Assembly: GCA_022563855.1 (NCBI GenBank)
Contig: JADFMN010000001.1
Span: 248,001 to 312,000, forward strand
DNA length: 64,000 bases
From: Armatimonadota bacterium
Lineage (GTDB): Bacteria; Armatimonadota; Fimbriimonadia; Fimbriimonadales; Fimbriimonadaceae
Reading direction: 5' to 3'
Position 1 is the first letter of the stretch, and every line of letters begins with the position of its first letter. Shown here piece after piece: positions 34,867-44,813 of the stretch. Both the position numbers and the translations under genes were made by a program. The notes beneath the pieces are model-generated. The model did no database searches and had not been told where the DNA came from. It worked only from the letters and a program-made list of their open reading frames with translations.

Positions 34867-36525
34867 TTACGTGAGGTACTCCGCCACGGTCTTGCACGAC
34901 GCCAGCGAGGGGTCTTCGAACACTTTCAGGGCATTTGCGAGGGCCTTTGCGGTGTCGATGCTGGTAACGCACGCGACACCGGTCTCGATGCACGCTCGAC
35001 GGATGCGACTGGCATCGCTGCCCGCCTTCTGGCCGTGCGCCGGGGTGTTGATCATCAGGCTCACTTCACCTTCGGCGATCATGTCTAGCAGGTTCGGAGA
35101 GCCGTCCTTGATCTTCTTCAATAGCAGCGAGGGAATGCCTGCGGCCCTCATGGCGTCGCCGGTGCCGAACGTCGCTGCGAGCTGATACCCTCTCCTGTGC
35201 AGCATCGCGCCGATTTCAACTGCGTCGTGCTTATCCTCGTTTCGCACGGTTATGATCACCTTGCCCTTCGGCTTGAAGTCGATGCCGCTGGCGACGAGCG
35301 CCTTGTAGAGCGCGGCCTCGTACGTGTAATCGATCCCCAGCACCTCGCCGGTGGACTTCATTTCTGGGCCGAGGCTCGGGTCGACCATCGCTAGCTTTTG
35401 AAAGCTGAACACGGGCGCCTTGACGGCGAAGATCGTGGGCTCGGGGATAGTCGGCGTCCCGGTCTTGAAACGCCTTTCAGGAATGATCGCGCCGGGCACC
35501 GCGCCCTTCATGCACGGCTTTGCGCCCTTGTGGTCGGCTCGCAGCGTCCATAGACCACTGCTGAAACCGATCTCCTCCAGCGTCTCACCCATCATGCAGC
35601 GCGTCGCTAGCTGCACGATCGGGATGCCAGTGACCTTGCTGAGATACGGGACCGTCCGGCTGGCGCGCGGGTTGACCTCGATGACGTAGGCGACCTCATC
35701 GACGACCACGAACTGAATGTTCATGATGCCCTTGATACCGATCCTTTTGGCGATGTCGCAGGCGGAGTTGACGATCTGTCGCTGCACGGAATCGGTAAGG
35801 CTAACGGGCGGGTAAACCGCGAGCGAATCGCCGCTGTGAATTCCAGACCGATCGACGTGCTGCATGATGCCAGGCAAGAGCGTGTGCCGGCCATCGCTGA
35901 TGACGTCGACCTCTGCCTCCACGCCGAGGAAGTACTTGTCGACCAGCACTGGCTGTCCGGGGTTGGCCTCCTCCGCCTCGCGATAGAAGTTGAGCAGGTG
36001 CGCGTCGTCGTAGATGATGTCCATCGCACGCCCACCGAGCACGAAGCTGGGGCGGATGAGCACCGGGTAACCGATCTCTCTTGCGACTTCGACCGCTTCA
36101 TCCAGGCTTCGGACAGCGCGGCCCGGCGGCTTCGGAATCTCTAGGTTCGAGAGCAGCTTTTCGAATTGGTCGCGGTCTTCCGCCAAAGCGATCGCGTCAG
36201 GCTGAGTGCCCAGAATCTTGACACCGGCATCGAGCAGTCCTTGGGCGATGTTGATCGCGGTCTGCCCGCCGAACTGCACGACGACGCCCATCGGATTCTC
36301 GTGAGCGATCACGTCGAGCACGTCTTCGAGGGTCACGGGCTCGAAGTACAGGCCGTCGCTCGTGTCGAAGTCTGTGCTGACCGTCTCCGGGTTGTTATTG
36401 ATGATGATCGCTCGGTAGCCGAGCGATTCGAGCGTCCAAACGCAGTGCACGCACGAGTAGTCGAACTCGATGCCTTGTCCGATGCGGATCGGGCCGGAGC
36501 CAAGGACGAGGACGGTGGGCTTCAT
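34867..36525 (-). CDS. carB: Carbamoyl-phosphate synthase large subunit, C-terminal half
   Basis: Carbamate-phosphorylating half of CPSase. It starts MKPTVLVLGSGPIRIGQGIE, equal to residue about 555 of E. coli CarB, and covers the second ATP-grasp domain (GGRAMDIIYDD, VIEVNPRASRTVPYLS) and the allosteric MGS-like domain (residues about 425-552, ending with LMINTPAHGQKAGSDASRIR). At 552 aa it is a complete half. It is preceded by its own CATAAT -10 and separated from the N-terminal half gene by 223 bp containing a strong terminator. Split CarB proteins are known in some archaea and deep-branching bacteria, where the halves associate. Confidence 0.95.
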   Translation of the reverse strand: MKPTVLVLGSGPIRIGQGIEFDYSCVHCVWTLESLGYRAIIINNNPETVSTDFDTSDGLYFEPVTLEDVLDVIAHENPMGVVVQFGGQTAINIAQGLLDAGVKILGTQPDAIALAEDRDQFEKLLSNLEIPKPPGRAVRSLDEAVEVAREIGYPVLIRPSFVLGGRAMDIIYDDAHLLNFYREAEEANPGQPVLVDKYFLGVEAEVDVISDGRHTLLPGIMQHVDRSGIHSGDSLAVYPPVSLTDSVQRQIVNSACDIAKRIGIKGIMNIQFVVVDEVAYVIEVNPRASRTVPYLSKVTGIPIVQLATRCMMGETLEEIGFSSGLWTLRADHKGAKPCMKGAVPGAIIPERRFKTGTPTIPEPTIFAVKAPVFSFQKLAMVDPSLGPEMKSTGEVLGIDYTYEAALYKALVASGIDFKPKGKVIITVRNEDKHDAVEIGAMLHRRGYQLAATFGTGDAMRAAGIPSLLLKKIKDGSPNLLDMIAEGEVSLMINTPAHGQKAGSDASRIRRACIETGVACVTSIDTAKALANALKVFEDPSLASCKTVAEYLT

Positions 36526-36748: not shown

Positions 36749-39439
<2,691 letters not shown>

Positions 39440-42131: not shown

Positions 42132-42755
42132 CTATTTGTATTTGACCGAGCAACCGTATGGCCGCGTCTTTGCCTTCTTCACTTTCTCGCCGGCTAGCAC
42201 CGAATCTAGAGCGATCGTGAAGAACTGGTCGGACTCCTTCTGCTTCGCAGCGCTCGCGCTGTACGATCCGTCGATCGCGCCGTCGTAGCGTAACACGCCC
42301 GCCTTGTCGATCACATACATTTGCGGCGTGGTCTTCGCATCATACTGATGTCCGACCTTGCCGGTGGGATCAAGCAGCACATAGCTCGGGGATGCCTTGC
42401 GGGATTTCGTGAGCCCGTTGGCGCGTTTGCCGTCCGCATAACCCTGCTTGCCTTCCGCGGAGGAGATGATGGTCAGCCACACGACACCCTCCTTCTTGTA
42501 GCTCTTCTGCATGGCCTGAATGCCGCCCTGGTAGTGGCCCACGACGAAGGGGCAGCCGTCGTTCGTCCACTCCAGCACGACGACCTTGCCCTTGAAGTCG
42601 CCCAGGTTTACAGCCTTGCCGTTCGAGTCAGTGAGCGAGAAGGTCGGTGCGGCCTTGCCGATCTCGGCTTCACCGCCTGTGGTCGGAGCGTTCCCCAACA
42701 TCGCGATCGAGGCCGCCGCCACAGATGCTATTACAATTGCTTTCGTGTATTTCAT
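42132..42755 (-). CDS. Exported thioredoxin-fold redoxin (AhpC/TSA-like)
   Basis: A 207-aa exported protein: signal peptide MKYTKAIVIASVAAASIAML, then a redoxin domain (KAAPTFSLTDSNGKAVNLGD, FKGKVVVLEWTNDGCPFVVG, TTPQMYVIDKAGVLRYDGAI). The active-site region DGCPF has a single cysteine, as in peroxiredoxin-like members that carry NxxCPF. The C-terminus contains another Cys (PYGCSVKYK) that could resolve it. It overlaps the upstream DsbD-N-like gene by 4 bp (ATGA) and ends at a strong terminator. It probably works with that protein in extracytoplasmic thiol chemistry. Confidence 0.87.
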   Translation of the reverse strand: MKYTKAIVIASVAAASIAMLGNAPTTGGEAEIGKAAPTFSLTDSNGKAVNLGDFKGKVVVLEWTNDGCPFVVGHYQGGIQAMQKSYKKEGVVWLTIISSAEGKQGYADGKRANGLTKSRKASPSYVLLDPTGKVGHQYDAKTTPQMYVIDKAGVLRYDGAIDGSYSASAAKQKESDQFFTIALDSVLAGEKVKKAKTRPYGCSVKYK

Positions 42756-43591
42756 TTTTGGCTATCCTGCTGTTTCTTAAACTCTATTGCTACTGTTCTG
42801 TCTTTCAACTGTACGACCAAAACGCCCTCGGGCTTTTTGATTCTACCGTTTGCGTACTTCGAAATCCTCGCCGTTACCGTGATTACCTTGCCGTGAATGC
42901 GCCATTTCTGCTCTGCCGCGTGGTCGATCACGTCTTCTCCGACAGCGAAGAAGTACGCCTTCTTCACGTCGGCCAGCAACACGCTTCCTAACTCAATTCC
43001 TAGTTCGACGGTTCCCTCTTGCTGGCTGAAATCTAGGCGATCCAGAGAAGTGATAATCGGATAGTCCCTCAGGGGTGCAAGCGGCGGTCCCTTTGGGAAA
43101 GAATCGATGTCGAAAGTTGCTGATACGGATTCAGACGCCGTCAGACACAACTCCTCGCAGATCAAGTAGTTGATTTGGGCGCTGATCGGTATGGCAGCGC
43201 CCGGCTCAAAACCCTTCGGCAACCTGATATCGACTAGAAGCGTGGGTGTGCCCTCGTGCGCATAACTGACGATCCCTCCAACCGAGACGCGATGAGGGAT
43301 CGGCCAAGACGTGCCGGCAATTTTGAATCCCGCTGGCAAAGTCCAATCGACTACCGGCGGCATGCCAGCATCGCCTGGATTCTTCCAATAGATGTGCCAC
43401 CCAGGGTCCAATCTGAACCGAAGTCCGACCGTCATAAGGTCGTTCGACTTTAACCGAAACGAGATCGGCACGAGATCGACTGTTGAATGCGGGCTGGTGT
43501 CCTCTTGGGCGGATACGACTGCTGGCGCCAGCCATGCCGAGACAGCCACGGCGGCACAAAACAACCTCAGAACTACGCGGGAGCCCAGCAT
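42752..43591 (-). CDS. DsbD N-terminal-domain-like exported protein
   Basis: Exported 279-aa protein with signal peptide (VVLRLFCAAVAVSAWLAPAV, cut after VSAQ). The body matches the N-terminal periplasmic domain of DsbD/ScsB-type reductases: MTVGLRFRLDPGWHIYWKNP, GDAGMPPVVDWTLPAGF, and NYLICEELCLTASES with the CxxxC pair that accepts electrons in DsbD-alpha. The membrane and thioredoxin domains of DsbD are absent, so an electron source must come from elsewhere. It is coupled to the redoxin gene and lies 49 bp downstream of the candidate selenoprotein. Confidence 0.85.
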   Translation of the reverse strand: MLGSRVVLRLFCAAVAVSAWLAPAVVSAQEDTSPHSTVDLVPISFRLKSNDLMTVGLRFRLDPGWHIYWKNPGDAGMPPVVDWTLPAGFKIAGTSWPIPHRVSVGGIVSYAHEGTPTLLVDIRLPKGFEPGAAIPISAQINYLICEELCLTASESVSATFDIDSFPKGPPLAPLRDYPIITSLDRLDFSQQEGTVELGIELGSVLLADVKKAYFFAVGEDVIDHAAEQKWRIHGKVITVTARISKYANGRIKKPEGVLVVQLKDRTVAIEFKKQQDSQK

Positions 43592-43640: not shown

Positions 43641-44813
43641 TCAAAAACCCATGTCGTCTTTGAACGGGTTCAGGTACTCGGCCCAGAAGAAGCTCTGCTG
43701 CGGCGGGACGTCCTTGGAGATCGCGTCGTTCACGTCGAGCATCCCGATGATGAGCGGAAACTTCCCTTCTGGCGCACCGCTGGTGTTGCGGTGGTCGCCC
43801 CACGCCTCGGCCTCCGCCCACGCCCGGAACTTCGTACATTTCATGGTTTTCAGATCGACAGTGAACGCCGCGTCGAAAGTGCCGACCATGCCGCGCGTGC
43901 CGTTCTTACCGTTCGCCGACTCGCAGTCGAAGTCGCCATGGATCGTGTAAGTGTCCTCGGCGATCCGCGTGACTTTGAAGTCCATCTTCTTGATCTCGTC
44001 GAGGAACCAGCGGTCCGGCTCGCCCCTCACGAAGTCGAGCATGTGGAAGCGCACGATCTTCAGCGCGGTCGCTTGCGGAAGATCGAACACGCGGCCGCTC
44101 TTTTCAACTATCTGCCTGATTTCATCTGCGAACAGCCACATGTAATCGCGCCCGATCTGCAGATTCTTCTGCGGTGCGCCCTCCGGCAGCGGGCGTATGC
44201 GCGAAAACACGCGTAGAACGGTTGTGTCATCGGCCAGTTGCTTCGTCCAGCTGGCCTCTTGCTGCGCCTCCGTAACTTTCACGCGAGCTGGCGGGTCAGC
44301 CCAATACTCGACGAGCCCGTGGTTGAGAAAATTGTGCAGCCGTGACTCTCCTCGAAAGTTGCCAGCGTTGTACCGCTTTCCGTCCGGCCCGAGGATGTAG
44401 AACCCCTGCGTCGTGCCGCCGCCGATCTGCCCCGGCCTTCCGATGGCGGCCATGAACCACTCTTGCGTTTCGGAAGGCGTGACCTGCAGCTCGTGCGTGT
44501 TGCCCGCGAACGGGATAAAGTCCGCGCTCAGTCGCTCGACGACCGAATCGTGATTGAAGGTGACCGCCCGGTCAGCCTGACCGTTGCCTCAAGTGCAGCC
44601 GAACGGATGGCCGTTCATGATCCACAGGAACATCGGCTTGCCGCTTTGTTGCGACTCGACCCGCGCCTTCATCAGGTTGGTGCGCCACGGGATTTCCATC
44701 CAACGCTCCTCGTGCGGCTGCGGCTGGATCGACGCGACCTTCGCATCGAGATCGGCGAACTGGCCGTGGGCTAAGGCGATCGCTAGCGCGAGCATAGCTA
44801 TATTGTACGGCAA
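43641..44813 (-). CDS. Exported thioredoxin-fold protein with Cys-Thr-Sec, candidate selenoprotein (UGA at 44591-44589)
   Basis: Reading the in-frame UGA as selenocysteine gives one 390-aa protein. Residues 1-18 are a signal peptide (LALAIALAHG). Residues 30-75 look like the start of a thioredoxin fold: WMEIPWRTNLMKARVESQQS, GKPMFLWIMNGHPFGCT then Sec75. After the UGA the frame continues GNGQADRAVTFNHDSVVERL and SADFIPFAGNTHELQV, the normal continuation of such a domain, then GFYILGPDGKRYNAGNFRGE and a C-terminal domain of unknown type. There is no start codon in the 45 codons after the UGA. A SECIS-like hairpin follows it. Neighbours on the same strand are an M61 peptidase (8 bp upstream), a DsbD-N-like protein and a redoxin, supporting a redox role. 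The alternative is a nonsense mutation. Confidence 0.75.
44559..44577 (-). promoter_or_regulatory. Candidate bacterial SECIS hairpin of the CxU gene
   Basis: On the minus strand TGACC pairs with GGTCA around the loop GGGC, extended by GG/CC past a bulged C. The loop begins with G, 20 nt after the UGA, within the 16-37 nt window described for bacterial SECIS elements. A competing fold CGGTCA-GGC-TGACCG also has a G-starting loop, but only 12 nt after the UGA. Confidence 0.5.

Follow-up and report, generated by a model that had tools for sequence, protein, structure and literature searches.

The window analyzed here, a 64,000-nt stretch of an Armatimonadota genome (3.18 Mb, 22 contigs, 96% complete), carries on its minus strand a coding sequence of 384 codons (43641..44795) that is interrupted by an in-frame TGA at codon 69 (44589..44591) and terminated by a second TGA at 43643-43641. 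A preliminary description had the frame broken by the internal TGA alone, and this was the case: no other stop was found between 44795 and the terminal codon. With the TGA read as selenocysteine (Sec), the residues at the interruption are Cys67-Thr68-Sec69 (Cys67 codon, 44595..44597) within the motif WIMNGHPFGCT-U-GNGQADR; two further cysteines, Cys291 and Cys320, were present. The start is most likely ATG 44795, which we preferred over the originally proposed TTG 44813; the latter would add 6 residues and is immediately preceded by an in-frame TAG. The earlier length of 390 aa and Sec position of 75 were corrected accordingly to 384 aa and residue 69.

The encoded N-terminus (MLALAIALAHGQ; 44760..44795, minus strand) was short, hydrophobic, and uncharged, and is a possible signal peptide. 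Its 11-residue mean hydropathy of 1.95 was borderline, just short of the threshold of 2.0 used in a simple hydropathy rule. By this rule, 57 of the 89 homologues with an assigned start looked exported; a lipobox was found in three, and Chloroflexota members such as L093, L094, L100, and L118 had no hydrophobic N-terminus. The label "exported" that the protein had been given is therefore kept as likely, if unproven, for the window protein, but it does not describe the family as a whole.

Approximately 50 bp past the stop, on the same strand, lies a gene for a DsbD N-terminal-domain protein (42752..43591; PF11412, E = 6.6e-15). It overlaps by 4 bases the next ORF, also on the minus strand, which encodes an AhpC/TSA-redoxin family protein (42132..42755; PF00578, E = 1.6e-14) with a signal-peptide-like N-terminus. 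An extracytoplasmic redox cluster in the source genome is plausible, but the redox neighbors were not found at other loci and the cluster is thus only a hint. A conserved operon was considered and rejected: near the other copies of the gene, tblastn recovered nothing homologous to the DsbD-N protein and no more than a weak match to the redoxin. Clustering of flanking ORFs across loci showed lineage-local synteny only.

Elsewhere on the minus strand of the window, the ORF of a carbamoyl-phosphate synthase large chain (carB; 896 aa, 36749..39439) contained a Y1/IS200-like (RAYT-type) transposase domain in frame. This domain sits between the ATP-binding and oligomerization domains, so that a core gene carries an in-frame insertion, and GQDAHAT/GQDARAT repeats occur near it. 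The second carB half lies at 34867..36525.

Conservation of the TGA and of a downstream hairpin

A search of 60 relatives plus the source genome gave matches in 22 genomes, nearly all of them holding one internal TGA. The TGA column was invariant in an alignment of 19 sequences, even though identity to the window protein dropped to approximately 20%. Homologues from other genera aligned over the TGA at 36-44% identity, in every case with the TGA in the same column, in agreement with the initial view that both halves belong to one protein. A GTDB-wide scan using the 19-sequence alignment recovered 240 relatives; among the best 80 of these, the TGA was at exactly the same place in all 80 loci. 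The pattern used for the scan sits upstream of the Sec codon, and therefore the scan does not select for TGA.

The best 80 of the 240 relatives came from Armatimonadota (mostly Fimbriimonadaceae), Planctomycetota, Chloroflexota, Thermomicrobiota, Poribacteria, Hydrogenedentota, Gemmatimonadota, Latescibacterota, Marinimicrobia, Verrucomicrobiota, and Kiritimatiellota, with one Cyanobacteriota metagenome-assembled genome (MAG) and one "Proteobacteria" MAG. Judged from sequence, the predicted selenoprotein family spans more than 10 bacterial phyla. Most homologue records are MAGs, so a single record assigned to an unexpected phylum may reflect a binning error. Among 99 distinct proteins, the site motif was CTU in 81, CVU in 13, and CAU, TTU, STU, MTU, and ATU in one each; Cys67 was thus retained in 95 and replaced by T, S, M, or A in four. 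A divergent paralogue in the source genome (L046 1387-2607, G000:C4:281780-282994) has kept Sec, but its partner Cys is replaced by Met (GMTUFNG). Some remoter relatives (L042 1384-2613, L183, and L185) have adjacent Cys and Sec (GHCUQNG, GRCUGGA, GNCUAGS), which suggests that Fimbriimonadaceae and Planctomycetota contain sister families of selenoproteins with a CU motif.

The genes for Sec insertion, whose presence in the same genome had been proposed as a check, were all found. The source genome has a tRNA-Sec (74 bits, anticodon UCA), SelA (513 bits; cut-off, 268), SelB (345 bits; cut-off, 242), and SelD (359 bits; cut-off, 125). The selD match (L017, G000:C4:338766-339668) has an in-frame TGA of its own; therefore, the selenophosphate synthetase is probably a selenoprotein as well. 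Within Armatimonadota, a strong match containing the TGA (E ≤ 1e-10) was present in 50 genomes, and selA was over the cut-off in 45 of them (Fisher P = 1e-11); it was likewise over the cut-off in 28 of the 30 homologue-holding genomes from other phyla or groups. The five Armatimonadota genomes with the TGA form and no selA match over the cut-off included two that are 73-78% complete and three recorded as 92-97% complete.

TGA normally terminates translation, and the locus could in principle be a pseudogene, a pair of separate proteins (with translation of the second half possibly starting from an internal ATG at 44453), or the product of a sequencing error. Such a true stop is in effect refuted by a TGA held in the same column in 19/19 aligned homologues and 80/80 of the best loci and by protein conservation that resumes immediately past it; the full Sec machinery and the conserved hairpin described below also speak against it. 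Assembly error was excluded because the same TGA occurs in well over 100 independent sequences.

A bacterial SECIS hairpin was predicted at 44558..44578 (minus strand; +11 to +31 after the UGA) from the fold, from family-level hairpin conservation, and from published criteria. The hairpin GG-c-UGACC-GGGC-GGUCA-CC (44577..44559), which one more A-U pair can extend to 44578..44558, comprises a 5-bp upper stem (UGACC/GGUCA), a GGGC loop, a bulged C, and a 3-bp lower stem. The bSECIS criteria are a loop of 3-9 nt, a stem of 4-16 bp, a G in the first two loop positions, a distance of 16-37 nt from the UGA, and an MFE ≤ -7.5 (PMC13188914). The window hairpin met them with its 4-nt loop, 5-bp upper stem, G as the first loop base, UGA-to-loop spacing of 19 nt, and energy of -9.8 kcal/mol with the first 9 nt after the UGA, assumed to be inside the ribosome, held unpaired. 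When no bases were masked, the minimum-energy fold favored a competing hairpin closer to the UGA (-10.8 kcal/mol). The SECIS register of the window was off by a few bases from that of its closest relatives. A hairpin beginning 20 nt after the UGA had been reported previously; this is correct for the loop, which starts at +20, but the stem starts at +11.

Across 72 non-redundant sequences, helices of at least 5 bp centered at +21 were found in 38, compared with 13.9 ± 2.9 in synonymous-codon shuffles (z = 8.3), and helices centered at +25 were found in 11, compared with 1.2 ± 1.1 (z = 9.2). Other centers were mostly near the null expectation, although +13 and +24 showed smaller excesses (z approximately 3.5). 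Compensating stem changes were seen across the family (GCUGGAC/GUCCAGC, GCUCGAC/GUCGAGC, and GGCGAGC/GCUCGCC). Hairpin conservation past the UGA exceeds the constraint of the protein sequence (z = 8-9). General mRNA structure in this region, measured as plain minimum energy, showed only a slight excess over other regions (mean z = -0.5), and the useful signal came from the position-specific test.

The identity of the inserted residue does not follow from an open frame by itself, and the TGA might be read as another amino acid (e.g., Trp, as in code 4) or be passed by non-specific readthrough. However, TGA is also the terminal stop of the window ORF and of many homologous ORFs, no homologue had Trp at the site (non-TGA sites had Cys, Ser, or Asp), and the TGA form co-occurred with selA and was followed by a SECIS-like hairpin. 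We regard decoding as a residue other than Sec, or non-specific readthrough, as scarcely credible. Decoding of the UGA as Sec is close to certain as a prediction; actual insertion is inferred, without peptide or selenium-labeling data. Three outcomes had been named beforehand as refuting a selenoprotein (no Cys- or Sec-containing homologues spanning the UGA, absence of selB/selC, and an assembly error); all were examined and none occurred.

Fold, known families, and proposed function

The AlphaFold2 model of the protein, built from a 76-sequence alignment, had a mean pLDDT of 94.8 and a pTM of 0.92. In this model, the N-terminal domain (approximately residues 27-168; 44292..44717, minus strand) has a thioredoxin fold, with Sec69 directly ahead of helix 70-79 and after strand 55-60. 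The redox residue thus stands at the N-terminus of the helix that follows the central strand, as membership in the fold requires. The closest solved folds were a domain of a Bacteroides exported protein (3f9u; VIA-align Z = 13.4), ERp18/19, AGR2/3, DsbH, and DsbD-gamma; the thioredoxin fold that had been proposed from the letters alone is well supported. Likeness to the DsbD-gamma, DsbH, and AGR2/AGR3/ERp18 folds (Z = 9-13 over 108-123 residues; rmsd, 2.2-3.6) was confined to the N-terminal domain and came with only 12-18% identity. These proteins have Cys at the active site and are not known to have Sec there.

The C-terminal domain (approximately residues 188-376; 43668..44234, minus strand) was mainly beta and barrel-like, and when modeled by itself it had a pLDDT of 95.5. 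No Foldseek match was found for it at E ≤ 0.001 (best E of at least 0.05). Its best VIA-align Z of 6.4 was at background level, and the fold is therefore unassigned rather than shown to be new.

The window protein had no Pfam or NCBIfam match above the cut-off, none of PF13899, PF13098, PF00085, and PF13192 passing the gathering cut-off. Searching 20 homologues against Pfam and NCBIfam gave sub-cut-off matches only, among them PF13899 in one of the 20 (E = 0.046, below the gathering cut-off). A PDB sequence search with the window protein returned nothing of note. These results, with the lack of a clear PDB match for the C-terminal domain, uphold the earlier statement that no characterized selenoprotein is known to have this two-domain layout.

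Two thioredoxin-like families already in NCBIfam were the nearest candidates for membership. VPGUxxT (NF041382/NF041383) resembles the window family in having a thioredoxin-like domain with a Sec motif and shows weak N-terminal-domain similarity in a few homologues; Trx7/PDZ (NF041199) has a Thioredoxin_7-like domain and includes some members that carry Sec. Weak matches to NF041383, NF041382, or NF041199 over the thioredoxin domain were obtained for some homologues (E = 4e-6 to 1e-3). However, the best homologue reached only 26.6 bits against the VPGUxxT models, whose cut-offs are 350 (NF041382) and 275 (NF041383). Scores were at least tenfold under the cut-off, matches covered only approximately 35-95 N-terminal positions, and the C-terminal domain lay outside them. 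The window protein itself had no match at E ≤ 1 to any of the three models, and no match to NF041383 over the cut-off was found in 201 genomes of the source phylum. The Sec motif of the family is MNG[HN]P-x-G-C-T-U-NNG (GHPFGCTUGNG in the window) and lacks VPGU. One homologue matched Trx7/PDZ over 35 residues at 18.1 bits (cut-off, 300), no PDZ domain was found in the window family, and the Trx7/PDZ motif is CxxU (PMC13188914, Table 1), as opposed to CxU here. We therefore consider membership in either family highly unlikely.

A Cys-x-Sec motif is shared with the thioredoxin-like selenoprotein Sec.1 (PF13192), the UshA-like family (NF041198), rhodanese (NF041203), and ferredoxin-thioredoxin reductase (NF041072), which are tabulated as CxU selenoproteins (PMC13188914, Table 1). 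No Pfam or NCBIfam match to these four was found for the window protein or the 20 homologues. No family in that table was matched to the motif of the window protein, although an earlier listing of the family in large candidate lists, such as that of a groundwater MAG study (ref. 66 of PMC13188914), is not excluded. For Armatimonadetes, Fimbriimonadia, Planctomycetota, and Chloroflexota, literature searches turned up no specific mention of the family. The family is widespread and apparently uncatalogued; its two-domain layout is unusual, and Cys counterparts are almost lacking. This suggests that routine annotation splits or truncates many genes of Armatimonadota, Planctomycetota, and Chloroflexota, and it hints at a hidden class of selenoproteins.

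We have high confidence that the locus is a true selenoprotein gene, with the UGA decoded as Sec via the downstream stem-loop and a product that combines a thioredoxin-fold domain bearing Cys-Thr-Sec with a beta-barrel-like domain, by inference as a selenol oxidoreductase. In the proposed mechanism, SelB with Sec-tRNA-Sec would be brought by the stem-loop just 3′ of the UGA and would insert Sec, and translation past the UGA would yield the 384-residue protein. The position of Sec and the near-constant Cys two residues earlier suggest selenol/thiol redox chemistry. The Sec selenolate would attack a disulfide, a peroxide, or another oxidized group; Cys67 would resolve the intermediate as a Cys-Sec selenenylsulfide (C67-U69), which an external thiol donor would then reduce. 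The C-terminal domain may hold or select the substrate, and the DsbD-N-like and redoxin neighbors are candidate partners in the source genome. A selenol-based oxidoreductase, probably extracytoplasmic in the source organism, is the most likely function, inferred from fold and motif only.

The protein might instead be a selenoprotein whose main role is not thiol-disulfide exchange: it could, for example, act as a selenol peroxidase, or it could carry a metal or a ligand, with a hydrophobic ligand bound by the barrel. The few members that dispense with Cys67 agree with this, as does the C-terminal domain, which resembles ligand-binding barrels in arrangement only. The presence of Cys two residues before Sec in the great majority of members and the placement of Sec at the classic active-site position of the thioredoxin fold argue against it, and we judge it unlikely without dismissing it. 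For thiol-disulfide exchange, Cys67 is the probable resolving thiol, and its replacement in 4/99 proteins means that this role is not universal. The CxU active site inferred at the outset is accordingly probable, but Cys67 is not strictly conserved and Sec is the indispensable residue.

Selenocysteine and its replacements

Homologues with Cys at the Sec position, which had been sought as a check, do exist but are very rare. Profile searches covered 291 Armatimonadota and 294 Planctomycetota genomes; Sec was entered as Cys in the profile, and the search would therefore favor Cys forms. Strong TGA-containing forms were found in 50 of the Armatimonadota genomes, and 91 near-full-length TGA forms were found in Planctomycetota. 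Against approximately 150 Sec forms in the two phyla, only one Cys-containing homologue was recovered (L031, CDDC), from a Sec-decoding genome that also holds Sec paralogues. The other Sec-less forms had Ser (G164, G034, and G485) or Asp (G024, G005, G476, and G514); in G489, G414, and G425, the site aligned to Ser but the loop was rearranged. Within the window's own family, three of the four Sec-less forms were in genomes without a selA match. In a maximum-likelihood tree, the Sec-less forms fell in few groups, with three state changes in total, and no shuffle gave a number as low. The tree was built quickly and its deep branches are weak, and the direction of change between Sec and Sec-less states is inferred only.

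According to a 2026 review, Cys homologues exist for nearly every selenoprotein (PMC13188914). The authors of deep-Sep likewise note that all known selenoproteins appear to have them, and that their method may miss selenoproteins that do not (PMC12013277). Discovery methods in the literature presuppose Cys homologues, a possible reason for the absence of the family from catalogues. We advance only tentatively, as possible but short of probable, the broader proposal that Sec is essentially irreplaceable by Cys in this large multi-phylum family, with a chemistry beyond that of thiols and a C-terminal fold not in the PDB, and that the family was overlooked because the methods require Cys homologues. 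Where Sec is lost, Ser or Asp takes its place, as if Cys were unable to do the job, and a single enzyme thus allows a direct test of why selenium is used rather than sulfur.

Three Planctomycetota genomes each hold a Sec-less copy (Ser or Asp) within a few kb of a Sec copy on the same contig (L181, G425:C37; G476:C321; and L183, G514:C104), as if one partner of the pair had lost its redox site.
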